NCBI GenBank assembly: GCA_030427805.1
Contig: JAUICP010000001.1
Location: 1,054,001-1,118,000 of the forward strand
DNA: 64,000 nucleotides
Source of the DNA: Bdellovibrionia bacterium
Lineage (GTDB): Bacteria > Bdellovibrionota > Bdellovibrionia > Bdellovibrionales > JAGQZY01
Direction of reading: 5' to 3'
Position numbers and translations under genes: made by a program. The notes under the pieces were generated by a model, which did no database searches, had not been told where the DNA came from, and saw nothing but the letters and a program-made list of their open reading frames with translations. Shown here piece after piece: positions 8,189-12,949 of this stretch; position 1 is the stretch's first letter, and every line of letters begins with the position of its first letter.

Positions 8189-8806
8189 CTAGTCTTCGCA
8201 GTAGCTGTCAGCGACGGGGCTGCCGGCATTCATTGCGACATGGTCAGAAGTGTACTGGTAGCAGTAGGTGTGGCCATTGTGGGCCGTACCCCAAGAAAAG
8301 TAGCTCGGATCCACTTGTTCACAGAATTTATTGGCAACAGGTTGGCCTTCGTTGAGAACTCTTCCATCCTTTGTCCACTTGTAGCAATAACCGTAACCGT
8401 TGAGCGCTTTGCCCCAGCCATATTTTGAACCGGTGTTGGCCTCTTTGTGGGCATTGATTTCGATCTCGATATTTTGTGGGCCTTCTTTTTTGAGGAGGGC
8501 ATCAATTCCACCGCCATCAACACCTAAAATGTCAGCACCGAGGGCCTCACCATCGATCTCGATTTCAATTTCAGTATTCAGAGAAGGGTTGTAGTCCTCA
8601 GAAGTTTCGCCGCTGAGTTGGGCAATTTCCTCTTCGATTTCGAGTTCGACCTTGCGGATTTCTTCCATCATCAGTTCTACGATCTCAGAATCCTCGGCCC
8701 ACTGATAGGCACCACCAAATGGTATGTAAGGACCAGAACTTTGAGATTCGAAAGCCAAAGCCCACGAACTGGACAGCATAAGCACCAATGCCACAAGATA
8801 TTTCAT
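8189..8806 (-). CDS. Secreted acidic protein with two C-terminal repeats, unknown function
   Basis: 205 residues from an ATG preceded by GGGAGGA. The first 20 residues are a signal peptide (MKYLVALVLMLSSSWALA). The middle is strongly acidic (VELEIEEEIA, TEIEIEIDGEALG). The C-terminus has two tandem repeats of about 37 residues: YGWGKALNGYGYCYKW..VLNEGQPVANKFCE and FSWGTAHNGHTYCYQY..AMNAGSPVADSYCE. Each has two Cys that probably form a disulfide. No known family is recognised; the protein is probably periplasmic or exported. Codons upstream of 8806 are excluded because the Shine-Dalgarno and signal peptide fit only here. Confidence 0.7.
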   Translation of the reverse strand: MKYLVALVLMLSSSWALAFESQSSGPYIPFGGAYQWAEDSEIVELMMEEIRKVELEIEEEIAQLSGETSEDYNPSLNTEIEIEIDGEALGADILGVDGGGIDALLKKEGPQNIEIEINAHKEANTGSKYGWGKALNGYGYCYKWTKDGRVLNEGQPVANKFCEQVDPSYFSWGTAHNGHTYCYQYTSDHVAMNAGSPVADSYCED

Positions 8807-8989
8807 AAATCCTCCCGTTTGCAGAAAGTCTAACAAGTGATATCTCGCAAACCTACGAAAATGGCCTCTGAATCAGGGCATCAAATTGTAAAATTAGGCC
8901 GAGCTCTAATGCTGGGGCTAAGCCTCGGTTTATTCTCTGGACTTTAAGCAGACTTCGAACAATTGGACCGAATTGGTTAAAGCCGATTC

Positions 8990-9043
8990 AATCTAGTAGG
9001 CTTCTGCAATCTAGTAGGCTTCTGTAATCTAGTAGGCTTCTGC
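8990..9043. repeat. 18-bp tandem repeat, three copies, spanning a stop codon
   Basis: Three consecutive copies of an 18-base unit (aatctagtaggcttctg plus c or t) at 8990-9007, 9008-9025 and 9026-9043. The third copy contains the last codons and TAG stop of the minus-strand gene ending at 9029. The other two lie just after it, so the in-frame stop is repeated twice downstream. Confidence 0.9.
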
Positions 9044-11095
9044 CATTTCTTCGTTTCGCTGGTGGAGTGGAGAGCGGAAAAACTGGGACCAATTTTTTAG
9101 GGCCTCTTGGCTGAGTGCTTTCACTTGTGGGTCGTTTTCTAAATCCTGCCAAGTTTCGTAAGTAAAAACTATATTTTGAAAACTTAACTCTCTTTGAATC
9201 TTTAGAGTCATGGCAACGGCACTGGCATCTGCAATCGAGGCCAGAGATAGAAAATTCAAAGCCCCTTTTGGAAAAAGCTCTTTCGGCAAACCAACAAGAC
9301 GTTTTAAAAAGAATGCAGAAAGAAAGCCACCAGATTGAATCGTTTTTACAACGAAGCGAAAGAGGTAAAACGAAAAAGGATAGGAGCTTGGATTTAAAAT
9401 AGAAGTGGTCCAGTTTTCTTGAAATCGATTCCGACTCAGAGCTCGACTCAGAAGCTTTGTAAACTGATGGTTATCAATGACACTTTTTAAATAAAAATTT
9501 TCGGAGCGACAATAATCTTCTGGCATCAAGTAAGCCTGTTCAAGGGCCCTTGGGATTCCGAGATATTTTAAGTTCGCTAGAGTTTTTTTATCATAGTAAG
9601 AGCGAGACGTCGGACCTTCGAGTCCGGTTCTTTTATAAATATCAAAGACGAGTTGGGAGCAGGTCATGGAGGTTTTATCGTTAATGCTCTGGTTAAAATC
9701 AAAGGGATAGGGGTGTTCGAGGTATTCATGGGCCAGGTCTTCGATTTTTCTTCGTTGATCCGCGGTGATTCCCTCAGTTGGTGAGTAAATCTCATTGTAA
9801 GTACTCACGCGACTGGAAAGGGCCGCCTTGAGCGGCATACTGACCACACCGTTTTTGCACATCTCGATAATCGCCGGAAATTCGCGACCCTGGGACCTGA
9901 GCATAACGACAAGTGCGATATGACCAAATTGAATCGGAGAATTCGTCAGTGTCGAAAACATTCCATCGGAGTTATTTTCACTATTCATCAGCAAGACATC
10001 GCCGGTGTGAAATTTCTCACCTCGGTAGTAAACACCACCTTCTGGAGCCAGGGCGTAGGCTTCGCGAACAAATTCTTTTTTCTGACTCCACTCAGAAAAT
10101 TGAATGGTCTTTCGGTCTTCTGGTCCGTAACCGAAATCAAGGGCACCCCATTTGATATCATCATAGTCAGGCCTTTTATTTTTGAGTTGAAAAAGAGTTT
10201 GTTGAAACTGAAAGCGATCTTCATAACTAGGGTTTTTTCGTGCGATATAGGCTTTTTTGACGAAATCGAGATTGAATTCGACAGTGTCGTGCTCTGAAAA
10301 AGTGCTTGAATCCTGTTTAGCCGGATCGAGATCTTCATCGGAAGAGACGCAAGCATTTGTAGAAACTTTCCCGTGGGTTAAACTCCTTCCATGGGCTGAA
10401 CACTTGCCAAAAGCGAGTTCTAAATAGGTTTCCTTTTTCTGCGCGAAATCAAGTTCTTCGCTCGGAGAAAGCTTTTTAAAATGTCCGGTTAGGTAGTCAC
10501 CGCCAGGAACTAGGTTGAAATTATATTCGGGATACTTGTGATGAATATAGTGATTCTTTAAGGCCCAAAGCCCCAAAGGGCCCCTTGCAATCCAACGAAT
10601 CAGTTTATGGCTTTCAGGAATCGATTGGGGATTGTGAATCAAAGGATGGATGTATTTACTCATCCAAACGGGCGAAAAGGCGAGAATCAAGGCTCCTAAA
10701 AAGGCACTGCTGCCAAAAATCAATCCGATGATAAGGGGCCCGATCAAAAAAGGAATAGCAAAAGGAAGAGTTCCACTCAAGCCTTTGAGGGTGAGGTTAT
10801 AGTGTTCGAGCCAGATAAGGTTTGCGAGCTTTGAATTTAATTTTCTTTGGATCCAAGAATCTACCATGCGCTTGTGATCGAGAGATTCAAATTGCTGGAA
10901 AATATGGCTTTGATAGGTTTTACCGTGATGAATAATCAGATGTTGGTACATGGGATTTAAAAATGGGGAAAATAGAGAAGGGTATTTTCGGTAAAGGGCC
11001 CTTTGCCATTTTCTGGGATGACCAAAATACTTATGACCGAGGGATTCTGTGACTGTTCCTGAAATGTATCCGAGTAGTAAACCGATTAAAAACAT
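9029..11095 (-). CDS. Fusion: fatty-acid-hydroxylase-like membrane domain + permuted NlpC/P60 (YiiX-like) domain
   Basis: 688 residues. The N-terminal 200 are membrane-embedded, with the His clusters of the fatty acid hydroxylase/sterol desaturase superfamily: H21/H26, H52/H56/H57/H64, H150/H154 and HYIHH 182-186, which would hold a di-iron centre. Residues about 340-500 look like a circularly permuted papain-fold domain of the YiiX/LRAT type: FHTGDVLLMNS, QFGHIALVV (His392) and SMTCSQLVFDIY (Cys479). The remainder is unassigned. The combination suggests an enzyme that hydroxylates and acylates or deacylates lipid, peptide or lipoprotein substrates (inference). It sits downstream of a fatty acid desaturase on the same strand. 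Confidence 0.72.
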   Translation of the reverse strand: MFLIGLLLGYISGTVTESLGHKYFGHPRKWQRALYRKYPSLFSPFLNPMYQHLIIHHGKTYQSHIFQQFESLDHKRMVDSWIQRKLNSKLANLIWLEHYNLTLKGLSGTLPFAIPFLIGPLIIGLIFGSSAFLGALILAFSPVWMSKYIHPLIHNPQSIPESHKLIRWIARGPLGLWALKNHYIHHKYPEYNFNLVPGGDYLTGHFKKLSPSEELDFAQKKETYLELAFGKCSAHGRSLTHGKVSTNACVSSDEDLDPAKQDSSTFSEHDTVEFNLDFVKKAYIARKNPSYEDRFQFQQTLFQLKNKRPDYDDIKWGALDFGYGPEDRKTIQFSEWSQKKEFVREAYALAPEGGVYYRGEKFHTGDVLLMNSENNSDGMFSTLTNSPIQFGHIALVVMLRSQGREFPAIIEMCKNGVVSMPLKAALSSRVSTYNEIYSPTEGITADQRRKIEDLAHEYLEHPYPFDFNQSINDKTSMTCSQLVFDIYKRTGLEGPTSRSYYDKKTLANLKYLGIPRALEQAYLMPEDYCRSENFYLKSVIDNHQFTKLLSRALSRNRFQENWTTSILNPSSYPFSFYLFRFVVKTIQSGGFLSAFFLKRLVGLPKELFPKGALNFLSLASIADASAVAMTLKIQRELSFQNIVFTYETWQDLENDPQVKALSQEALKNWSQFFRSPLHQRNEEMAEAY

Positions 11096-11151: not shown

Positions 11152-12273
11152 CTAAAGAAATTGAGGTTGATCTTGACCCACAATCAGTCGAGATGTCTTG
11201 ATTGTTCTGGCAAAAACCGATTGCTCCTTATAATCAACTTCATATTTCTGACATAAATTTTTAAGTTTAGGTTTTATGGCCCGGTACTGGTAAATCGATT
11301 CTCGGGGCCAGAGGTGGTGCTCGATCTGGTAATTGAGACCACCTAAGAAAAAATCAACAATCGGGCCGTTAGAAAAATTCACGCTGGATTCGATTTGACG
11401 GCGCATGGCTTCTTCACGACTTCGGTGTTTGTCGTGATAGAGGGGCACATCGTCTCCGGTGTGATTGGTGGCGATAACAACGAAGCCATAAAAATTTGCG
11501 AGAAATTCAGCGAGCACACTATTGATGATGACCGCAATGACGGCACTTTGGCCGAGCGGTAAAAACAACATGGGTATCAATAGAAAACGATAAAAAAAGT
11601 AGGGGAGCAAACTTTGAAGCCAAAGTTCTCGTCCCATTTTTTGAAATGGATTCCATACATCGAAGTCGATGTTTTTTGAGTCGCGAAGGCCCTTCCTGTG
11701 GTAGGTTTCAACAATTGTATTGGGGGCGTAGTAAAAAGGTTTCCAAATAATAGAAACAATAAATAAGAGAAGGTATTTTACAAAAAGAGGGGCCTGCATG
11801 TTGCGCAAATGTTTTGTATTTCTCCATACCAGGTCAGGATCAATGGAGTGATTAGTGTGATGGTGGTGAAGTTTATTGTGTTCGATATCCCAATAACGAG
11901 GGAGAATCCAATCGGGCCAATCGATAAATCGTCTCCAAGAGTGGGCAAACCTTGAGCTGTGCAGCCAAGAGGACTTTTTTACAAAGTGATCGGCGGCTCC
12001 GTGGTTGATCGTGTGAAAGACTAAGGACCAGCGAGTAAAATTTCCGAGGGCGAGAAAAAGAATGGCAAATAGGCTAATGCCACTCCATGAAAACCCATAA
12101 CCTATAATTGATATGAGCCAACTCAAGCCGTTAAAGAGGTGGAGTTGACGGATCATTTTTTGAGATCGCATGGATTTTATTTCAGTTCCTAAGGCGAGAA
12201 GATCTCTGTAGAAATCAGAATTCTTTCGGTTTGTGGATGGATTTGTTAGCTCTCTGGACTCTGTAATATTCAC
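11152..12273 (-). CDS. Membrane fatty acid desaturase
   Basis: About 373 residues from a GTG at 12273 preceded by GAGG with 9-base spacing. An in-frame GTG at 12363 gives 30 more residues but has no visible ribosome site. The three His boxes of acyl-lipid desaturases are present: HTINHGAADHF, HNKLHHHHTNH and the C-terminal NYQIEHHLWP. Several hydrophobic stretches lie between them. It would introduce double bonds into membrane acyl chains with a di-iron site. Divergent from a TetR gene and upstream of the hydroxylase fusion (gap about 56 bases), so the three may form one lipid-adaptation locus. Confidence 0.85.
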   Translation of the reverse strand: MNITESRELTNPSTNRKNSDFYRDLLALGTEIKSMRSQKMIRQLHLFNGLSWLISIIGYGFSWSGISLFAILFLALGNFTRWSLVFHTINHGAADHFVKKSSWLHSSRFAHSWRRFIDWPDWILPRYWDIEHNKLHHHHTNHSIDPDLVWRNTKHLRNMQAPLFVKYLLLFIVSIIWKPFYYAPNTIVETYHRKGLRDSKNIDFDVWNPFQKMGRELWLQSLLPYFFYRFLLIPMLFLPLGQSAVIAVIINSVLAEFLANFYGFVVIATNHTGDDVPLYHDKHRSREEAMRRQIESSVNFSNGPIVDFFLGGLNYQIEHHLWPRESIYQYRAIKPKLKNLCQKYEVDYKEQSVFARTIKTSRLIVGQDQPQFL

Positions 12274-12279
12274 AATATT
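12265..12279. promoter_or_regulatory. AT-rich inverted repeat over the desaturase start codon
   Basis: AATATT-CAC-AATATT is a perfect inverted repeat centred on the proposed GTG start of the desaturase (reverse strand). It could be a regulator site or an mRNA hairpin hiding the start. Short and AT-rich, so chance is possible. Confidence 0.25.
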
Positions 12280-12382
12280 GAACCTCAAGTTCTGGTTTTT
12301 ATTAATTCGCTGAATATCATCAACAGAATCAAAACTAACAAGAATTGAGCGAGAAGCCGACACGTACGAGTTTACACAATTT

Positions 12383-12427: not shown

Positions 12428-12949
12428 GTGAGTGAAAAAAAGCGGTCTAGCAAATCAGATACTATTTACAAAATTTCCACTTCAATTTTTCAATTAGAGG
12501 CCAGCAAGGGCCACTTGCAGTGGAAGGTGACTGATTTGGTGAGAAAAGCTGATATTAGTCGCCCCCTTATTTATCGATATTTTGGCAGTTCAAAAAAAGA
12601 AATGCTCCAGGGAGCCTTGAGAAGTTTTGTCGATGTGTTCTATGCATTTGGTCCCGAGAGCAAAGGCTTGAGTTTTATAGAAATTTTGAAGAAATCGCGC
12701 CTTCGCATCGAAAACTGCCCCGAGGCGACATTGTTTTACACCTATTGGCGCTTCAAAGACTCTTGGATTCAAGAGGAATTTATTGGCATCGAAGAGAAGT
12801 TTTTAGGGAAGTTGCGCACTTACTTTCCGGATAAAGATGAGCAGAGCCTTTTGCGACTCTACGTATTCCTCCACGGTCTTGTTACGGCTCCCTTTATCCG
12901 ACTCGAAGATCATGAAGAGCTTTTCGATCATCTTGAATTGCCCCGCTGA
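12428..12949 (+). CDS. TetR-family transcriptional regulator
   Basis: 173 residues. The N-terminal helix-turn-helix is visible in VTDLVRKADISRPLIYRYFGSSKKEMLQGAL (about 33-63), the classic TetR DNA-binding pattern. The C-terminal ligand domain is short. The GTG start lies directly beside GGAGG, closer than usual, and no other in-frame start is available. It is divergent from the desaturase, so by analogy with DesT/FabR-type regulators it may control unsaturated lipid synthesis (inference). Confidence 0.82.
   Translation: MSEKKRSSKSDTIYKISTSIFQLEASKGHLQWKVTDLVRKADISRPLIYRYFGSSKKEMLQGALRSFVDVFYAFGPESKGLSFIEILKKSRLRIENCPEATLFYTYWRFKDSWIQEEFIGIEEKFLGKLRTYFPDKDEQSLLRLYVFLHGLVTAPFIRLEDHEELFDHLELPR

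Follow-up and report, generated by a model that had tools for sequence, protein, structure and literature searches.

Permuted NlpC/P60 enzymes of the LRAT/HRASLS type act on phospholipids by taking up an acyl chain as a thioester and then releasing it or transferring it to an acceptor. The bacterial YaeF/YiiX-type enzymes, represented in Pfam by Peptidase_C92 (PF05708), have the permuted order His, acid, Cys (PMC3142127), and their functions have been called poorly understood (PMC7387801). There are precedents that connect such proteins with acyl lipids: a fatty acid was bound in the pocket of the YiiX crystal (PMC3142127), LnsA was required for lipoprotein N-acylation in the staphylococcal LnsA/LnsB system (PMC7387801), and Tox-Act1, a permuted NlpC/P60 protein, was identified as a phospholipase (PMC12994826). 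The FA_hydroxylase superfamily (PF04116), which includes the Scs7/FA2H branch, is a separate family of enzymes characterized by ordered His boxes.

The window, a stretch of 64,000 nucleotides from a Bdellovibrionia bacterium, contains on its reverse strand a single 688-aa open reading frame with no internal stop (9029-11095), in which relatives of both families are joined. The encoded protein consists of an N-terminal FA2H/Scs7-like membrane domain (residues 1-205, 10481-11095) supported by hhalign, a bridging homologue and hydropathy, a variable linker (residues 226-290, 10226-10420), a Peptidase_C92 domain of the permuted papain-like family (residues 362-500, 9596-10012) and a conserved C-terminal extension (residues 501-688, 9032-9595). 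The original prediction had described this gene as a fusion of a hydroxylase-like membrane domain with a permuted NlpC/P60-type domain, and both domain assignments as well as the joined frame were borne out by the Pfam search, profile comparison and the occurrence in three genomes. The gene is a combination of known domain families for which we found no earlier description; no open-access paper on the pairing of FA_hydroxylase-like and C92 domains was found, which is weak evidence of novelty as most journals lay outside the search.

Integrity and distribution of the joined gene

The joined frame is a genuine fusion. In one relative, G342, the two halves were consecutive genes of 241 and 423 codons with a 4-bp ATGA overlap, so that one frameshift could join them, and the long frame might accordingly be ascribed to a sequencing or frame-shift artefact or to chance read-through of two genes. 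We consider this explanation extremely improbable, however, as the joined frame was also present in the sister species G001 (94% identical, with an in-frame 18-nt indel in the linker) and in the diverged G235. The frame was thus unbroken in three genomes drawn from two families, which disposed of the suspicion of an artefact, while the neighbouring genes in G342 turned out to form an overlapping operon, an arrangement favouring the fusion.

The gene of G001, a Bdellovibrionia MAG representing the second species of the genus (locus L015), showed 93-94% identity to that of the window. The dN/dS values between the two were 0.044 for the hydroxylase half and 0.060 for the C92 half, indicating strong purifying selection on both, and the linker varied, with many substitutions besides the indel. 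G235, belonging to another family of the phylum, had a joined gene of 661 residues with approximately 49% identity in the first half and approximately 31% in the second. The proteins of the window, G235 and G342 clustered together in both the hydroxylase tree and the C92 tree (support of 0.93 and 0.999, respectively), suggesting that the hydroxylase and C92 pair travelled as a unit. As for one fusion with a later split versus two fusions, the two trees disagreed with weak support. In G107 the hydroxylase-like gene and a C92 gene were located on separate contigs, indicating that the pairing was not obligatory.

The fusion gene is rare and belongs to the Bdellovibrio group. A scan of a large collection of genome contigs returned only the sister species G001, and no relative was found in the plasmid and viral collections. 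A search of 291-369 genomes of Bdellovibrionota yielded a small family of relatives for the N-terminal domain. Downstream of the fusion, the window encodes a small predicted secreted protein (8189-8836) with two tandem copies of a Cys/Tyr-rich motif of approximately 35 residues, and the sister species has a conserved counterpart in the corresponding place.

The N-terminal hydroxylase-like domain

The alignment of six relatives, compared with Scs7, displayed the four His boxes of the FA_hydroxylase family in order, with at least eight His. The boxes, all on the reverse strand, were E17-x3-H21-x4-H26 (11018-11047), H52-x3-H56-H57 followed by H64 (10904-10942), H150-x3-H154 (10634-10648) and H182-x2-H185-H186 (10538-10552) followed by N194-L195. 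E17, H21, H56, H57, H150, H154, H182, H185, H186, N194 and L195 were invariant among the six members down to 23% identity, a degree of conservation indicating that the clusters did not arise by chance. The four His clusters noted within the first 186 residues thus lay where the original prediction had put them.

Searches of residues 1-205 gave no Pfam family above threshold and nothing useful from NCBIfam or the PDB, and even the relatives at L049 and L102 reached only 19 bits against PF04116, for which the cut-off is 31. When a profile of the N-terminal domain built from ten relatives was compared with the FA_hydroxylase proteins of the phylum, hhalign gave a probability of 82% (E 1.1e-5), whereas the probability was 4.6% for the linked desaturases and 1.8% for a reversed control. 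The profile search also retrieved a bridging protein, L091, which is a clear member of PF04116 (63 bits) and matched yeast Scs7 in the PDB with E 8.5e-11; the window protein, L091 and Scs7 all share the box 1 spacing E-x3-H-x4-H. From these sequence comparisons we place residues 1-205 in the FA_hydroxylase superfamily, on a remote branch that resembles FA2H/Scs7; since the domain falls below the PF04116 cut-off, we regard it as a distant relative and not as a Pfam member. The earlier statement that the His clusters match di-iron hydroxylases thus held for the profile comparison and the L091 bridge but not for a direct Pfam match to FA_hydroxylase.

Hydropathy analysis of the fusion protein located hydrophobic segments at residues 1-19 and 105-149, the latter being long enough for a hairpin. 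The domain is linked to the Scs7/FA2H branch by the profile and L091, and has in common with it the way in which the His boxes are ordered and spaced, E-x3-H-x4-H and the last box, H-x2-HH, among them, as well as a hydrophobic hairpin that separates box 2 from box 3. The fusion differs from Scs7/FA2H in being below Pfam detection, in having H-x3-HH as box 2 and a single hydrophobic segment before box 1, and in being joined to C92, with no cytochrome b5 domain found. An AlphaFold model of this half, calculated with no deep alignment, had a mean pLDDT of 46, too low a confidence for the fold to be judged.

Other members of this family were found in different settings. The genome of the window itself encodes on contig C1 a second, longer protein of approximately 480 aa (L099:7586-9049), in which the same hydroxylase-like His boxes follow an apparently exported N-terminal region, and comparable long versions are present in G024, G349, G362 and G283. 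Around a stand-alone hydroxylase-like gene of G227 (L049:9809-10480) several multi-pass membrane proteins are encoded; by eye, two of them look like apolipoprotein N-acyltransferase (nitrilase-type) proteins.

The permuted papain-like C92 domain

Peptidase_C92 was the sole Pfam domain detected in the fusion protein, at residues 362-500 with E 4.4e-14 and 53.3 bits against a cut-off of 27. NCBIfam and the PDB gave weak support over the same region, the best match being YiiX (2if6, E 6.5e-4). Alignment of eight C92 proteins showed that H392 (9920-9922), E411 (9863-9865) and C479 (9659-9661), all encoded on the reverse strand, were invariant and arranged in the permuted order of His, polar residue and Cys. 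H392 is the predicted catalytic His, C479 the predicted nucleophile, and E411 the predicted third, polar catalytic residue by comparison with Glu64 of BcPPNE (PMC3142127). The motif GDVLLMN, H392 and C479, which had been proposed to fit the YiiX-type permuted papain family, all fell within the Peptidase_C92 match.

The fusion thus resembles YaeF/YiiX in its significant Pfam match, the GD[VIL] start motif, the permuted His, Glu and Cys and the match to 2if6. It departs from YaeF/YiiX in the attached hydroxylase-like membrane domain, the lack of a signal peptide, and the long conserved C-terminal extension, which is typical of Bdellovibrionota C92 proteins and common to the long ones in the eight-protein alignment. 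A further apparent difference concerns the fourth conserved residue, which is Tyr in permuted NlpC/P60 enzymes: its place seemed to be taken by Phe (F465, 9701-9703) in the window, G235 and G342 proteins, whereas all four stand-alone relatives aligned had Tyr at the equivalent position; the HMMER alignment of the window protein placed a Tyr two residues before F465. The AlphaFold model of the C92 half, likewise calculated with no deep alignment, had a mean pLDDT of 37, again too low for the fold to be judged. No other domain fusions were seen among the longer C92 relatives.

As judged from hydropathy and by eye, the stand-alone C92 relatives of the phylum mostly had signal peptides or lipoboxes, while the separate C92 protein of G342 had no signal sequence. 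The export or lipoprotein nature of many stand-alone relatives, together with the Pfam label of C92 as an amidase/peptidase family, would suit an amidase or protease whose substrates are proteins, lipoproteins or pieces of peptidoglycan, with the hydroxylase domain being mainly a membrane anchor or having an independent substrate. This is an unlikely reading in our judgement, because the His boxes are kept down to approximately 23% identity under selection as strong as that on the C92 half, arguing that the N-terminal domain is no mere anchor, and because the genes found alongside encode desaturases and not enzymes of the cell wall.

Desaturase neighbourhood and a proposed lipid-tailoring function

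The original prediction had placed a desaturase and a TetR regulator beside the fusion gene, and both were found. A gene for an FA_desaturase (11152-12363; PF00487, E 3.2e-23), of 403 aa when counted from its earliest potential start, precedes the fusion in the same orientation with a gap of 56 bp, and the two genes probably form an operon. A divergent TetR-family gene on the forward strand (12428-12949; PF00440, TetR_N, E 4.1e-6), an arrangement repeated in G001 (L055), possibly regulates this operon. In G342 the C92 gene overlaps in turn, again in ATGA fashion, a desaturase gene of 356 codons. Upstream of the G235 fusion a desaturase fragment at the contig edge was orthologous to the window desaturase (44% over 59 aa, E 7e-18), and a second desaturase was present downstream. 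The desaturases of G107 and G209 adjoin stand-alone hydroxylase-like genes. A desaturase was thus adjacent in five (window, G235, G342, G107 and G209) of the seven compact members, the others being G227 and G122. Eight desaturase genes are spread over the 4.5 Mb of the genome of the window, from which we roughly estimate that a given locus would have a desaturase beside it by chance in about one case in a hundred. The relatives in which the two parts are neighbouring genes beside a desaturase suggest one lipid-modifying unit.

The window desaturase itself was rare, being found in 4 of 369 genomes at E <1e-20, in addition to the G235 fragment. In G358 (L115:6718-10864) its orthologue has downstream of it genes for an MBOAT acyltransferase, a different acyl-transfer partner, and for an uncharacterised 396-aa protein. 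The presence of the desaturase alone as a sign of the fusion was ruled out by this locus.

The adjacency of desaturases, and the precedent of a permuted NlpC/P60 protein with phospholipase activity (PMC12994826), would also suit a different reading. In it the N-terminal domain would be a desaturase-like or other dimetal oxidase that shares fatty acyl or other hydrocarbon chains as substrates with the neighbouring desaturase, and the C92 domain would only free a fatty acid as a lipase or thioesterase. The profile comparison, in which FA_hydroxylase reached 82% and the linked desaturases 4.6%, makes this improbable in our view. The N-terminal domain could nonetheless catalyse another oxidation, as hydroxylases and desaturases share His-box chemistry.

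On the precedents of YiiX, LnsA and Tox-Act1, we propose that an acyl chain is hydroxylated and then cleaved or transferred through a thioester on C479. The fusion would then be a bifunctional inner-membrane lipid-tailoring enzyme, with the desaturase acting on the same lipid pool, an interpretation for which we hold the chances to be evenly balanced. In the scheme that we infer, the N-terminal FA2H/Scs7-like domain would carry a dimetal centre and hydroxylate a membrane-presented acyl chain at the cytoplasmic face. The C92 domain, flexibly tethered and likewise at the cytoplasmic face, would afterwards form an acyl-thioester on C479 and release the hydroxylated chain or move it to an acceptor in an LRAT/HRASLS-like manner. 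The desaturase, hydroxylase and C92 domains would constitute one tailoring unit sharing a lipid substrate, possibly controlled by the TetR-type regulator. Such hydroxylate-then-cleave/transfer chemistry would fit both families. Residues rich in Lys and Arg follow the first membrane helix, so that the His boxes, like the C92 domain, would be expected on the cytoplasmic side; the lack of a signal sequence in the separate C92 protein of G342 was in line with this location. The lipid substrate of the C92 domain is suggested by analogy, the family being annotated as amidase/peptidase. The apparent Phe at the conserved-Tyr position and the dispensability of the pairing in G107 are points against the lipid-tailoring function.

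Comparison with the two described systems acting on acyl lipids shows the extent of the analogy. In the LnsA/LnsB system, too, acyl chains are handled jointly by a permuted NlpC/P60 protein and a second protein of the membrane, but LnsA is exported, its partner is a CAAX-protease relative and no hydroxylase is involved, so that the likeness is one of analogy only (PMC7387801). Tox-Act1, whose His/Cys pair acts on phospholipids, is of the same permuted fold class as the C92 domain of the fusion, although it is a secreted antibacterial effector with no hydroxylase and another genomic context (PMC12994826).

The hydroxylated sphingolipids of Bdellovibrio-like bacteria were considered as a possible link to the fusion. 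More speculatively, and with less confidence than in the tailoring function itself, one polypeptide might hydroxylate a membrane acyl chain and transfer that same chain to an acceptor by means of its tethered permuted papain-like domain, giving rise to a hitherto undescribed class of hydroxy-acylated lipids or lipoproteins in these bacteria. The N-terminal domain family outlines a hydroxylase branch missed by current Pfam models. The fusion and the G342 operon with a desaturase are evidence at the genome level for an action on acyl lipids by this branch of C92 at least, and thereby name acyl lipids as a candidate substrate class.
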